NCBI GenBank assembly: GCA_020062035.1 | Contig: JAGUXD010000051.1 | Coordinates: forward strand, 1-11,144 | Length of the DNA stretch: 11,144 nucleotides | DNA from: Candidatus Brocadiia bacterium | GTDB taxonomy: Bacteria; Planctomycetota; MHYJ01; JACQXL01 | Direction of reading: 5' to 3' | Shown: in pieces, positions 701 through 4,080 of the stretch | Numbering within the stretch: position 1 is the stretch's first letter | Layout: the number at the start of each line of letters is the position of its first letter | The notes under the pieces: generated by a model | Seen by the model: the letters and a program-made list of their open reading frames with translations, nothing else | Database searches by the model: none | What the model was told of the DNA's origin: nothing | Made by a program: the position numbers and the translations under genes

Positions 701-729
701 ATTCTATCATATCAATTATATAAAATCAA
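701..729 (-). promoter_or_regulatory. Sigma70-like promoter for the ACT-domain gene
   Basis: On the minus strand TTGATT (724-729) and TAGAAT (701-706) are separated by 17 bases, close to the sigma70 consensus. The predicted start falls near 694, leaving a short leader that contains the AAAGGAG ribosome site. The -35 box lies inside the last codons of the radical SAM gene. Confidence 0.6.
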
Positions 730-1742
730 GAAAAACATCTTTTTATCGCATAAGCGTTCCGACAGGCCTCCGGTGATGGTTTATAAATAGAGCCGGTTTC
801 TAAATAATCAAGTCCTGGACATTGGCGACAATATAGCAAAAGTTCACATCTGTAACATTGCTTTTTCTTGCTTATGGAATACCGACGAATCCGATTCAAT
901 AATCTTGAGTTCCGCCAGATTTTTTCAAAAGAACTATCAAGAATATTCCCACTGCTACAAGGCATCTGAATACAGGGATATACATCACCATAGGAATTGA
1001 TGGCACAAGAAGAACGGGCAAAAGAACAAGGATAATAATAAGACTGATGTTGGATTTGAGCCGAAGTATGTAGTTTTTTATAGACCATTTCTAGGTCTTC
1101 ATCTGACAGCCGTGATTTGGTTGGAAACATATTACCATCATCACGTGGGGTAATAATCGGGTCTATATCATAAGAAACATTCAATTCCCGAGATAATTTG
1201 AGCATCCTTGATAAATCGGCAATATTTTCTTTCATCAGAATATACTTAAAACGGATATTCAGTCCGGCTTCTTTTAATCTTTTTACACCTTCTATACTTC
1301 TTTCGTATGAGTTTTCGGTTTGGGTAATATAATTATGGATTCTGGCATCTGCGCCATAAATACTGATATGCACCTGCATTATACTCAAAGAAAATAATCT
1401 CTTGGCTATTTCTTTTGTGATAAGAGTGCCGTTAGTAAAGATTTGCAATGCCATATTAGCATTGATTGCCTTCTGGCAGATTTCAAGAAAATGAGGGTGT
1501 ATTAATGGCTCCCCCCCAGAAATAGTAAGAAAAAGACAACCTGTCTTATGTAATTCTTCTAATAAATCCCGAATTCTTAAAAGAGACATTTCTTTTCGCT
1601 GGGGATATTCCACTCTATAACAGTGCCGACAATTAAGATTACAATGACGCGTCAACTCCAACAGGACCGACAAAGGAATTAAAGATTCGTCTGCTTTTGT
1701 CGTTATTTCTTCTATAATTAAAGGTTCCATATGAATACCCAC
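726..1742 (-). CDS. Radical SAM/SPASM peptide-maturase-like enzyme
   Basis: A 338-residue enzyme. The radical SAM cluster motif CNLNCRHC has Cys34, Cys38 and Cys41, and the SAM-binding GGEP is at 76-79. The C-terminus carries a SPASM domain that would hold auxiliary Fe-S clusters. Its Cys246-x5-Gly-x4-Cys257 is followed by Cys296, Cys299, Cys305, Cys308 and Cys327, matching the seven-Cys SPASM pattern. Related proteins (PqqE, AlbA, anaerobic sulfatase maturases) install cross-links or oxidise side chains on peptides and proteins, often with a PqqD-type partner. Such a partner is encoded directly upstream here. GTG at 1742 has GAGG eight bases before it; an alternative ATG at 1730 would remove four residues. 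It is the last gene of the operon. The fold and cofactor are clear, but the reaction and substrate are inferred from the neighbouring peptide gene. Confidence 0.9.
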   Translation of the reverse strand: MGIHMEPLIIEEITTKADESLIPLSVLLELTRHCNLNCRHCYRVEYPQRKEMSLLRIRDLLEELHKTGCLFLTISGGEPLIHPHFLEICQKAINANMALQIFTNGTLITKEIAKRLFSLSIMQVHISIYGADARIHNYITQTENSYERSIEGVKRLKEAGLNIRFKYILMKENIADLSRMLKLSRELNVSYDIDPIITPRDDGNMFPTKSRLSDEDLEMVYKKLHTSAQIQHQSYYYPCSFARSSCAINSYGDVYPCIQMPCSSGNILDSSFEKIWRNSRLLNRIRRYSISKKKQCYRCELLLYCRQCPGLDYLETGSIYKPSPEACRNAYAIKRCFS

Positions 1743-1745
1743 TTC

Positions 1746-2042
1746 TTACGCCTCTGGGGTAGGGGACTTTTCAGATATTTTTATTAGATGATTCTCTAAA
1801 AGTGTCTCAAGAAACTGAGGAATTTCTCTTTGAGCAACGGCTAAATCCACCTCGTATTCTTCTGCCACTGAGTCTACTATTTCATCAAGCGAGGGTTTTT
1901 TATCCAGATACTCCCAGATATAAGAACCAACTTCATTCAGTTGATGAAGAAGCCGGTCCTTAGTGTCCACGATTACTACACTGTCTTCAATTCGTTGAAA
2001 AGGAAAATATGTTCTTTCTATTAAAGTGTTTGATTTTAGCAT
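1746..2042 (-). CDS. PqqD-family peptide chaperone (RiPP recognition element)
   Basis: A 98-residue protein with the PqqD pattern. A beta-rich start carries VVIVDTKDRLLHQLNEVGSY at about 22-41, then comes IWEYLDKKPSLDEIVDSVAE (42-61), and a winged-helix-like C-terminal half contains the EYEVD and FLETLLENHLI segments. In PQQ and many RiPP pathways this fold binds the leader peptide and presents it to the radical SAM enzyme. Here the radical SAM/SPASM gene begins three bases after its stop. The ATG at 2042 directly abuts the stop of the peptidase gene. An AAGGAGG at 2049-2055, six bases before the ATG, lies within that gene's last codons, so translation is likely coupled and strong. The family call is secure; binding to the 49-residue peptide is inference. 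Confidence 0.88.
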   Translation of the reverse strand: MLKSNTLIERTYFPFQRIEDSVVIVDTKDRLLHQLNEVGSYIWEYLDKKPSLDEIVDSVAEEYEVDLAVAQREIPQFLETLLENHLIKISEKSPTPEA

Positions 2043-2423
2043 TTAATGCCTCCTTGTTATCTGCCATGGGATTAAACAAAGTGAAACAAATAATTTCAGG
2101 AAATTAGTTAAGTGATTTTCTACAGAGAACATTTTATTATTTCTGATAATACTCACCACTTTACCTGAAAACTTTTCTGATTTCATTCGTTCGATGTATG
2201 AAAGAGAATCTCCTTTAAGAACCAATCTCCTCTGATAAAAGTCTTTCCAGATTAAACGATGGACACATAATCGTTTATCTGCGAAGTGGAAACCAACCGC
2301 AACGACATCACCTACTTTCGTATCTTCAAGAAAACAGGGTTTTATCAAAATATAATCACCGTTCCTGATAAAAGGGCGCATACTGCTTCCTGAGACTCTG
2401 ATAACTAAATTATTCATTCCCAT
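2043..2423 (-). CDS. S24/S26-family peptidase without N-terminal signal anchor
   Basis: A 126-residue protein with the signal-peptidase/LexA-type serine peptidase fold. SGSSMRP at 11-17 carries the likely nucleophile Ser14. NGDYILIKP follows, then VGDVVAV at 37-43, and VHRL gives His55 at the position of the general base. LKGDS at 69-73 matches the GD box. A His instead of Lys base is typical of the SipW/eukaryotic-signal-peptidase branch (S26B), so I infer a Ser-His mechanism. Ordinary signal peptidases start with a membrane anchor, but here the Ser box begins at residue 11. The only hydrophobic stretch is near the C-terminus (about 108-120), which could be a tail anchor. The gene overlaps the kinase stop by 14 bases and has no clear Shine-Dalgarno, which suggests translational coupling. 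Leader-peptide cleavage is inferred from context. Confidence 0.8.
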   Translation of the reverse strand: MGMNNLVIRVSGSSMRPFIRNGDYILIKPCFLEDTKVGDVVAVGFHFADKRLCVHRLIWKDFYQRRLVLKGDSLSYIERMKSEKFSGKVVSIIRNNKMFSVENHLTNFLKLFVSLCLIPWQITRRH

Positions 2424-3234
2424 TTTGAATAACTTTTTTCATTATTATTTGGTAAGGCGTATTTTTTTTAAGGAATATCTGGTAAAAAGGAATCTTCAGT
2501 AAGATACGGCTAATAAGCCATAATAGTTTTTGAATATCTTTATTCTGATTCCCAAAGAACAAAGTCAATTTAAGTAATCTTCTTATTGCCTGTAATGGAG
2601 GAATTTCTTTCAGCATCTTCTTTCTGTCGTCATATTTATTTTTAGCGAGGAAGAATATACCCTGTAATTGAGAGGAAATAGGTTGACCCGGCTTCTGGAA
2701 TTCGCCCCAGAAAGGAGTGCTTATAATATAAACCTTTTTATTTTGTATTCTTATGGCGACCAATTCATCGCTTAACAGGTCTGAATAAGGGGCTTTTTTC
2801 GCTAATGTCGTCTTACCGCTTCCACTTGCACCGGGAAAAAGATACCCTCTGTTTTTATAACGAACCGCACAAGCGTGAATTAAAAAACCGCTTTCTAATA
2901 TTAGTAATTGAGAAAAAAGTAACCTGAGTAAGGTATCAAAATTATAAATATTTTCTTCTACTATCCCTTTACCACACCAGAGTCCGTTTTTTCTGGATAA
3001 TCTACACTCAAACCCCTCGCCTTTTACTAATAATCTCTTATTATGGCCGGTGATTGAAGGAACAATATTTGAGTTACAATAAGAGGATGTACGAATGCTT
3101 AAATCAATATTTATCTTATCTAGATCAGATAAAAATCTCTGATATCGCTCTTTAATTTTATTGTAGAATCCAGGGTCAGATTGAAGATTTATTTTAGAGT
3201 GAATCCCACAGATATTAAGAGAGAAAAGAGCCAT
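2410..3234 (-). CDS. HPr kinase (HprK)-like P-loop kinase
   Basis: With the ATG at 3234 this is a 274-residue protein. It has a P-loop GASGSGKTT (135-143), a preceding LIHACAV segment resembling the HprK strand before the P-loop, and LLSDELVAI (153-161), which supplies acidic residues at the metal-binding position. TPFWGEFQKP follows and is typical of HprK-related kinases in peptide-modification cassettes. Classical HprK phosphorylates Ser46 of HPr, but no HPr gene is present. HprK homologues are known to phosphorylate lasso-peptide C-termini, so phosphorylation of the neighbouring peptide is plausible. The frame is open further upstream to a TTG at 3306 and an ATG at 3276, but both lie inside the 49-codon gene and lack a Shine-Dalgarno. 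The chosen start follows that gene's stop by 14 bases and also has a poor site, so low-level expression or coupling is likely. The C-terminal 50 residues are hydrophobic and basic. Confidence 0.8.
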   Translation of the reverse strand: MALFSLNICGIHSKINLQSDPGFYNKIKERYQRFLSDLDKINIDLSIRTSSYCNSNIVPSITGHNKRLLVKGEGFECRLSRKNGLWCGKGIVEENIYNFDTLLRLLFSQLLILESGFLIHACAVRYKNRGYLFPGASGSGKTTLAKKAPYSDLLSDELVAIRIQNKKVYIISTPFWGEFQKPGQPISSQLQGIFFLAKNKYDDRKKMLKEIPPLQAIRRLLKLTLFFGNQNKDIQKLLWLISRILLKIPFYQIFLKKNTPYQIIMKKVIQNGNE

Positions 3235-3248
3235 ATTTTCTGAATAGT

Positions 3249-3398
3249 TTATGAAGTTTTCAGTTTTCTCAGGCATGCGGCTGTAGTGAGTTTGGTTTTT
3301 CCGCAAGCCAGAGCGTTTCCTTCAAAGATTTTTTCAGTGCGAATACGAGGCGTTTGATACCGCTTTTTACCCTTTGATTCCTTTTTATTTTTGGTCAT
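3249..3398 (-). CDS. Candidate RiPP precursor peptide, 49 aa
   Basis: A 49-codon gene (ATG at 3396-3398, TAA at 3249-3251) inside the operon. An AAGGAGG sequence sits six to seven bases before the ATG, within the last codons of the HEAT gene, and is the strongest ribosome site of the operon. The first 13 residues are Lys-rich. Residues 14-26 read YQTPRIRTEKIFE, a leader-like segment. Residues 29-32 are A-L-A-C, an AxA signal-peptidase-type motif before Cys32. The tail after Ala31 is 18 residues with Cys32 and Cys42, four Thr, one Ser and five basic residues. From memory this resembles short Y..P.I..E.IFE..ALACGK peptides next to radical SAM/PqqD genes in other bacteria, which I could not check. 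It overlaps the HEAT gene by 14 bases. I infer that it is the substrate of the flanking enzymes. Confidence 0.8.
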   Translation of the reverse strand: MTKNKKESKGKKRYQTPRIRTEKIFEGNALACGKTKLTTAACLRKLKTS

Positions 3399-4080
3399 CT
3401 TTTTCCTCCTTTTTTTTGGAGTTATTGATGGAGTTAATAATTTTTATGGATTCTAAAGCTGATTGACGAACCCGTTCTGATGTATCCGTCTCTGCCACTT
3501 TCTGAAGAATCTCAACAAAATTACGGTCGTTCAATCTGCCCAAAGCCCAGGCAGCGTTTTCTCTAACAAAATGACCATGGTCTTTCTCAAGTAATTCCAC
3601 AAATAAATCAGCCAGGTCAATCTGGCACATTCTTCCTAATACTCTGGTTGAGAAAGCCCGAACCCGTTCATTTTCACCCTCTAATACTAATTTACGCAAG
3701 AACGGGATTGCCTCATTTCCATATGATTTAATAGAAAGGTCTAATTGTTTAATCTGCTGAATATTCTTGGTGATAATTGCCTGTCGCCAGGTATTTATCA
3801 ATTGGCCGAGTTGTCGTTCTCTGGACGCTACGGTTTCGTCTTTAGGAAAATCCGTCTCTGCCTTGCTCTTATCTGGCGATAGAGTATTCGGATAATCACT
3901 GAGTGGATGTGGAGAGGCAATATTTTCATCATTAGTTTTTATATATTGAATTCCCTGTTTATCCGATAATTTAGAAGTTTTCCCGGACGGTTTGACTTGG
4001 GAATAAAGATAGATAAAAAATATTATCGCACAGGCACAAATGAGAAAAGAACCGATTATCATTATCCTTTTATAACTCAT
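3385..4080 (-). CDS. Membrane-anchored HEAT-repeat protein
   Basis: A 231-residue protein. Residues 7-27 form one strong transmembrane segment after a Lys/Arg-containing start, predicting N-in topology with the bulk outside the cytoplasmic membrane. A polar, Ser/Pro/Asp-rich linker (28-85) follows. Residues about 120-216 form HEAT/PBS-lyase-like helical repeats, with repeated units around ERVRAFSTRVLGRM, HFVRENAAWALGRL and ERVRQSALESI. Such repeats bind proteins or peptides. The tail after 220 is strongly charged. It is the first gene of the operon and its end overlaps the 49-codon peptide gene. It may anchor or receive the peptide, or may simply share the promoter; this is inference. There is no Shine-Dalgarno before the ATG at 4080, and the promoter suggests a nearly leaderless mRNA. 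Met7 is an alternative start but would remove the positive N-terminus. Confidence 0.75.
   Translation of the reverse strand: MSYKRIMIIGSFLICACAIIFFIYLYSQVKPSGKTSKLSDKQGIQYIKTNDENIASPHPLSDYPNTLSPDKSKAETDFPKDETVASRERQLGQLINTWRQAIITKNIQQIKQLDLSIKSYGNEAIPFLRKLVLEGENERVRAFSTRVLGRMCQIDLADLFVELLEKDHGHFVRENAAWALGRLNDRNFVEILQKVAETDTSERVRQSALESIKIINSINNSKKKEEKDDQK

Follow-up and report, generated by a model that had tools for sequence, protein, structure and literature searches.

The peptide gene and its neighbours

The window analysed here is a whole contig of 11,144 bases from a genome that is 64% complete. Its minus strand carries a tightly packed run of genes that begins with a HEAT-repeat protein (3385..4080; N-terminal hydrophobic segment by eye) and continues with a small gene for a putative precursor peptide, a kinase, a signal-peptidase-like protein, a PqqD-family protein and a radical SAM/SPASM enzyme. 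The peptide gene (3249..3398, minus strand) encodes 49 aa followed by a TAA stop, and its product is MTKNKKESKGKKRYQTPRIRTEKIFEGNALACGKTKLTTAACLRKLKTS. As the original prediction had described, this 49-codon gene sits between two genes that it overlaps, sharing 14 nt with the HEAT-repeat gene and 28 nt with the kinase. The latter figure is the true overlap: the kinase frame opens at a TTG (3306), and comparison with loci L031 and L032 (MPQE.., MPEG..) places the start at the ATG at 3276.

With 51 ORFs of at least 40 aa listed in the 11-kb window, a 49-codon ORF is by its length no more than chance, and the case for a real gene is made instead by homologues and by recurrence at the same place in three relatives. 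A phmmer search with the peptide against 5.8 billion proteins returned three other proteins (E 9e-12 to 3e-10), one close relative carrying the label Candidatus Brocadiia, a lineage of the Planctomycetota. When the peptide was searched against 149 relatives, the strongest matches besides itself came from three genomes of the same order (G005, G003 and G001; E 3.6e-16 to 4e-14), and the corresponding loci (L031, L032 and L033) show an identical cassette order with the peptide gene in the equivalent place. In the four peptide genes, pN over the final 36 codons was 0.18-0.21 compared with a pS of 0.65-0.87, and mismatches were distributed over codon positions 1/2/3 as 23/17/60% (28/16/60% without the kinase overlap), so that the protein-level constraint for which a dN/dS-type check had been suggested is evident. 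The homologues, the conserved locus and the low pN relative to pS rule out a chance ORF, and the 49-codon minus-strand ORF is a conserved protein-coding gene.

Two of the three relatives, L031 and L032 (genomes G005 and G003), likewise have the HEAT-repeat gene ahead of the peptide; L033 (G001) and the other loci searched yielded none. A scan for promoters and terminators gave results close to those for shuffled sequence (15 versus a mean of 12.6, and 3 versus 2.4).

An AAGGAGG ribosome-binding site (3405..3411, minus strand) is positioned 6 nt before the ATG of the peptide gene, with an anti-SD duplex energy of -11.6 kcal/mol. The original prediction had noted this site and its good spacing and had called it the best of the operon; its strength is confirmed, but it is tied with that of the PqqD gene, which has its own AAGGAGG (2049-2055) 6 nt from its ATG (-11.4 kcal/mol). 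The remaining energies were -8.2 kcal/mol for an ACT gene, -5.8/-6.1 for the radical SAM gene, -3.8 for the HEAT-repeat gene, -0.4 for the peptidase and +1.2 for the kinase, the last two being as poor as had been claimed. The peptide site is the strongest of the cassette in L032 (-11.3) and L033 (-12.0), not in L031 (-1.0). The kinase and peptidase genes, which lack a ribosome site and have starts that fall within the gene before them, probably depend on translational coupling.

The predicted peptide kinase (2410..3276, minus strand) matches PEPCK and HPrK/P folds; HPr kinases were present in the Foldseek list and absent from the 50 VIA-align matches listed. Residues H134, G149, S151, G154, K155, T157, D170 and E171 are invariant in 19 aligned rows, and G152 is kept in at least 90%. 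The kinase frame of L032 (5229-5936) is short, at 235 aa, and misses part of the N-terminal half relative to the other rows. The signal-peptidase-like protein (2043..2423, minus strand) is of the S26B (Sec11/archaeal) type, its nearest solved relatives are SEC11 proteins, and its Ser14-His55-Asp72 residues are invariant in 18 rows; it is the candidate leader peptidase.

The PqqD-family RRE (1746..2042, minus strand) is closest to lasso-type RREs, its nearest solved relatives being TbiB1, the lasso RRE 9x90 and LppB (9x8z). When the published pocket numbering of LppB was placed on the chain by residue spacing, N33 corresponded to Asn in 13/15 rows, D70 to Asp in 14/15 and F74 to Phe in 11/15; D70, by which LppB holds the leader Tyr, is Glu in the window RRE. 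The radical SAM/SPASM maturase (726..1742, minus strand) contains C30-xxx-C34-xx-C37 and seven SPASM cysteines, numbered from the ATG at 1730. Its nearest solved relative is SkfB (E 8.5e-36), described as a sactisynthase, with PqqE second, and none of the NCBIfam equivalogs listed was matched above its cut-off (best 25 of 100 matches for the window, best 25 of 75 for relatives).

A nucleotidyltransferase of the NTP_transf_5 family (PF14907) is encoded in 15 of 17 genomes, including on another contig of the window's own genome (G000:C102), and was not found in the other two (G017 and G193). It stands near the cassette in two relatives (L031, 3914-4825; L032, 7650-8372). No exporter was found in the window, whose ends are those of the contig. 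By eye, an ABC-transporter cluster recurs in 6 loci.

A peptide family with an invariant C-terminal serine

A profile search detected 159 family proteins at E<=1, of which the 120 listed were examined. All 120 listed peptides, the window copy included, contain Y-x-x-P, C-x-K and a terminal Ser; the Tyr-to-Cys distance is 18 in 119, and the second Cys lies 7 residues from the end in 107. Scanning the DNA of a genome-contig collection for ET[MTS]ALACGK identified 51 loci. This pattern stops short of the C-terminus, making the count of terminal Ser independent, and all 52 peptides of these loci end in Ser. Merging both sets gave 177 distinct peptides that fit a family expression fixing Y..P, E/D, C, K and their spacing, with the other positions and the last residue independent; again, 177/177 end in Ser. 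The non-fitting peptides dropped from this set (P0066 and P0077 of the 120, and those of L040, L041 and L135) all end in Ser as well. For comparison, Ser was last in 33 of 492 neighbouring ORFs of at least 90 aa, some of them spurious. A locus table was built with a looser expression, and its entries at L063 and L068 (814-1149) and at L081 (3084-3221) are false peptides. The invariant C-terminal Ser, which the original prediction did not mention, is the most telling feature of the peptide, whereas the Thr-rich tail emphasised originally proved peculiar to the window copy and is not family-wide.

Within the window peptide, the motif Y14-x-x-P17-x-I19 (3342..3359), of the form YxxPx[hydrophobic], is the putative RRE-binding site of the leader. 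It is followed by F25-E26 (3321..3326), the counterpart of F-3/E-2 at the mapped cut of linear polyphosphorylated peptides (LPP), so that a candidate cleavage site A falls after FEx. The residues A29-L30-A31/C32 (3303..3314) provide candidate site B, of the small-x-small/Cys kind expected of a signal-peptidase-like enzyme. Cleavage at site B would leave an 18-aa core, C32-G-K34 ... C42 ... S49 (3252..3305), ending in the Ser49 codon (3252..3254) that would specify the phosphorylation site. Across the 177 distinct peptides, the residue at -3 to the core Cys is A/S/G in all and that at -1 is A/S/G/T in 176. F/Y-E is conserved before the core and is followed by T in 89, R in 70 and other residues in 18.

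The peptide belongs to no named precursor family: the window copy matched no NCBIfam and no Pfam family, four relatives matched no NCBIfam model, and the 120 listed proteins carry no precomputed Pfam domain. A profile of the peptide was without a PDB relative (best E 1.9). A lipoprotein reading was rejected, the leader being basic and, by eye, without a hydrophobic stretch. In L091, L094 and L096 (Eisenbacteria, Fermentibacteria), a 62-residue tail rich in Ser/Tyr/Gly/His runs from SALACGK to a terminal Ser, with a radical SAM gene adjoining.

Distribution and co-occurrence of peptide and enzymes

By title, the 51 scanned loci come from Acidobacteria/Acidobacteriota, Burkholderiales, Lysobacterales, other Pseudomonadota, Rokuibacteriota, Armatimonadota, Elusimicrobia, Fermentibacteria and Eisenbacteria, among others, and include one named strain, Thermomonas flagellata, at locus L069. 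PqqD, radical SAM, S26 and HprK genes all lie within 5 kb of the peptide at 18 of the 28 loci with at least 3.5 kb on each side; two of the rest have PqqD, radical SAM and HprK, three PqqD and S26, one radical SAM only and four none. S26 was not found near L074 or L078. Across all 51 loci, many of them cut by contig ends, the four enzymes are present in 29 and none in 10. For nine loci with missing parts (the four orphans, L082, L087 and L088 included), the whole genomes hold kinase, S26, radical SAM and PqqD in 9/9 cases. The enzyme cassettes were located in six such genomes: those at L127, L128, L130 and L132 hold a further, Ser-ending ALSCGK/ALTCGK peptide, and none was seen at L129 and L131. 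Homologues therefore adjoin the same enzyme set in several phyla, the outcome hoped for when a search beside radical SAM/PqqD/HprK genes was proposed.

Among 392 genomes of the phylum, the peptide was found in 12, the kinase (E<=1e-40) in 13 and both in 11 (Fisher 1.3e-18, a rough value that overstates independence, the genomes being related and only the best candidates per genome scored). When the window's own order and the other profile genome were left out, peptide-kinase co-occurrence was 6/6 versus 1/376. The presence lists behind the Fisher test were compiled by hand from profile results. Co-occurrence extends to unlinked genes, kinase and peptides lying on different contigs in G010, G015, G019, G180, G193 and G262. 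Single peptide copies are present in G000, G001, G003 and G005. Several dispersed peptide genes were observed in G019 (four), G010 and G193 (three each) and G004 (two); G019, G010 and G193 each have one kinase match, on another contig.

Some genomes depart from the full set. The kinase match of G004 is partial (2.4e-11), with none at E<=1e-20. G008 has kinase, RRE and radical SAM proteins, and the peptide was not found; G269 has the kinase and no peptide by profile, and a divergent ORF that contains Cys and ends in Ser adjoins its cassette. The same-family genome G002 (78% complete) gave radical SAM and PqqD matches and no kinase or peptide match. No radical SAM protein was found in G262 at E<=1e-40, and no PqqD protein in G180 at E<=1e-10. 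A kinase scan of the genome-contig collection found no relative. The leader-plus-core precursor role put forward in the original prediction gains support from the codon constraint, from the enzyme-set neighbours in several phyla, from the co-occurrence with the kinase, and from a YxxP motif resembling the one recognised by lasso and LPP RREs, together with a largely conserved RRE pocket.

A proposed maturation pathway and its relation to known systems

The conserved features point to a peptide on which three enzymes would act: a signal-peptidase-like protease, a radical enzyme and a kinase that phosphorylates the last residue. We consider it probable that the peptide is a RiPP precursor that is RRE-guided, radical-SAM-modified and phosphorylated on its terminal Ser, and whose leader is removed by the Sec11-type peptidase; each chemical step, the order of the steps and any biological role of the pathway are what we infer from the genes. 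The PqqD-like RRE would bind YxxPx[IVLF] in the leader and hand the peptide on to the enzymes. Modification of the core, in which C-x-K is invariant and a second Cys typically stands seven residues from the C-terminus, would fall to the radical SAM/SPASM enzyme, most likely yielding a Cys-derived thioether. Acting like PadeK on paeninodin, the HPrK-like kinase would phosphorylate the Ser that invariably ends the peptide, and the NTP_transf_5 nucleotidyltransferase encoded on another contig may decorate the phosphate. The Sec11-type serine peptidase would remove the leader, and we lean somewhat towards a cut at small-x-small/Cys rather than after F-E-x as in LPP, because the small residues at -3 and -1 are almost invariant whereas the residue after F/Y-E varies; the conserved small residues before the Cys could instead serve the radical SAM enzyme.

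Large proteins are encoded beside the peptide at several loci. At L046, L048, L050, L052, L056, L063, L068, L076 and others, an ORF of ~700-900 aa stands directly upstream, ending 110-321 bp before the ET..ALACGK motif, with a signal peptide and an early D-W-S-x-[RK] stretch by eye. Large repeat proteins, also recognised by eye, lie within ~100 bp of peptide genes in class-level relatives (L036, 2-6694; L038, 8528-16000; L039, 2-7753; L040, 4005-6713; L041, 3-4703; L122, 8183-10978). An Acidobacteriota locus (L074) has a large nearby protein with PQQ_2 and CBM96 domains. Two members of the protein cluster described below have no Pfam match, and a 749-aa neighbour has neither a Pfam match nor a PDB match better than E 0.25.

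Such neighbours raise the idea that the matured peptide is attached to or secreted with them, as a surface modification and not a diffusible product. In 13 of 51 loci, a same-strand ORF of at least 450 aa has its end no more than 700 bp upstream of the motif, a single-linkage cluster containing such proteins spans 20 of the loci compared, and repeat proteins flank the peptides of L036, L038-L041 and L122. However, the window and the surroundings of L033 lack such a large protein, the three peptide copies of G193 sit among unrelated genes, the neighbours come from several families, and some of the 13 upstream ORFs (L054, L058) look spurious. We therefore regard a surface role of this kind as unlikely.

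Among described systems, LPP is the kind closest to the window cassette. LPP clusters (lppAKBSDN) are described from Bacillota (Popov et al. 2026, PMC13381572), where LppK phosphorylates core Ser3 and the precursor consensus is YxxPxVLxHQxIxFETxxS with highly variable C-termini. The LPP leader is cut after F-E-T, as matched by mass, the unphosphorylated precursor being cut poorly, and the Sec11-type leader peptidase is called new to RiPP pathways and described mainly in Bacillota (PMC13381572). BsfK is likewise described as phosphorylating core Ser3, not the terminal residue. Common to LPP and the present cassette are a discrete PqqD-like RRE with a YxxP leader, F-E near the leader end, an HprK-like kinase, a predicted archaeal/Sec11-type Ser-His-Asp peptidase and an NTP transferase, which is unlinked here. 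LPP clusters include an MsbA-like exporter; none was found within the 11-kb contig. A radical SAM/SPASM enzyme, a core with two Cys and C-x-K, and phyla other than Bacillota are found here and not in LPP as described.

The shared enzymes, and a leader (Y-x-x-P ... F-E-[T]) resembling the LPP consensus, would also fit a peptide that is an outlying LPP: linear, phosphorylated near the core N-terminus and served by the radical SAM enzyme in an accessory role. The precursor departs from the LPP motif in several respects. The Y-to-F spacing is 11 compared with 13 in LPP, and neither the window peptide nor the FETMALAC.. peptides have a Ser at +3 after FEx. The C-terminal end is nearly fixed, with an invariant terminal Ser as the presumed phosphorylation site, in place of Ser3 and the highly variable C-termini of LPP. 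Moreover, 21 of 28 fully covered loci have a radical SAM gene no further than 5 kb from the peptide, whereas the LPP paper (PMC13381572) does not contain the words 'radical SAM'. An outlying LPP is thus improbable, and phosphorylation of the terminal Ser remains our preferred reading.

PqqA and MftA are the precursors of PQQ and mycofactocin, and a comparable role as precursor of a small redox cofactor would suit the pairing of PqqD with a SPASM enzyme, the position of PqqE as second nearest solved radical SAM relative, and the single peptide copy in G000, G001, G003 and G005. Against this, the stretch separating C-x-K from the second Cys is variable, the C-terminus is kept up to the last Ser, and some genomes hold several dispersed peptides (four in G019, three in G010 and G193, two in G004), making a cofactor precursor very unlikely.

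With regard to phosphorylated lasso peptides, PadeK phosphorylates the C-terminal Ser of paeninodin, and the characterised lasso kinases are described as carrying a D-D motif (PMC9266682). Compared by motif, the paeninodin-type systems (PadeK, ThcoK, SyanK, PsmK) share with the window the kinase His-Lys-Asp residues, the precursor C-terminal Ser, the lasso-type RRE and, in some, an NTP transferase partner. They differ in that here a radical SAM enzyme is present and a ring acid is not, and the kinase has D-E in place of D-D, a point against the main reading. That the peptide itself is a lasso peptide is scarcely credible, despite a YxxP leader and an RRE and kinase motif of lasso type, since no lasso cyclase (C) or B2 protease was found among the window genes scanned and Asp/Glu occurs at ring position 7-9 after the Cys in 1 of 52 peptides.

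The radical SAM protein resembles the maturases of sacti- and ranthipeptides (SkfB and others) in being a SPASM enzyme, with a SAM-cluster motif and seven auxiliary Cys, beside a Cys-containing precursor; here, however, the core is not Cys-dense and the enzyme falls under the listed NCBIfam equivalog cut-offs. The SynChlorMet system (NCBIfam ScmC/ScmD/ScmE/ScmF) similarly brings together a kinase-like protein, a PqqD-like protein and SPASM proteins. For the L069 kinase the top NCBIfam match is ScmC, at 46.2 bits (window kinase, 18.7; cut-off, 125), but the listed Scm matches of the window and L069 all fall far short of the cut-offs and the peptide matches no NCBIfam model.

A literature search of limited reach recognised no published description of this cassette, and none under 'ALACGK' or 'SynChlorMet'. 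Because LPP, paeninodin-type lasso peptides and SynChlorMet each fail as a full match, the cassette probably represents a new form of phosphorylated RiPP system, RRE-guided and equipped with a radical SAM maturase. One small substrate, its terminal residue invariant, would undergo both radical SAM chemistry and HPrK-type phosphorylation, and the cassette extends predicted Sec11-type leader peptidases from the Bacillota, in which they have mainly been described, to several other phyla. An unannotated small ORF thus gives access to a large family of peptides, in phyla with little-known peptide products.
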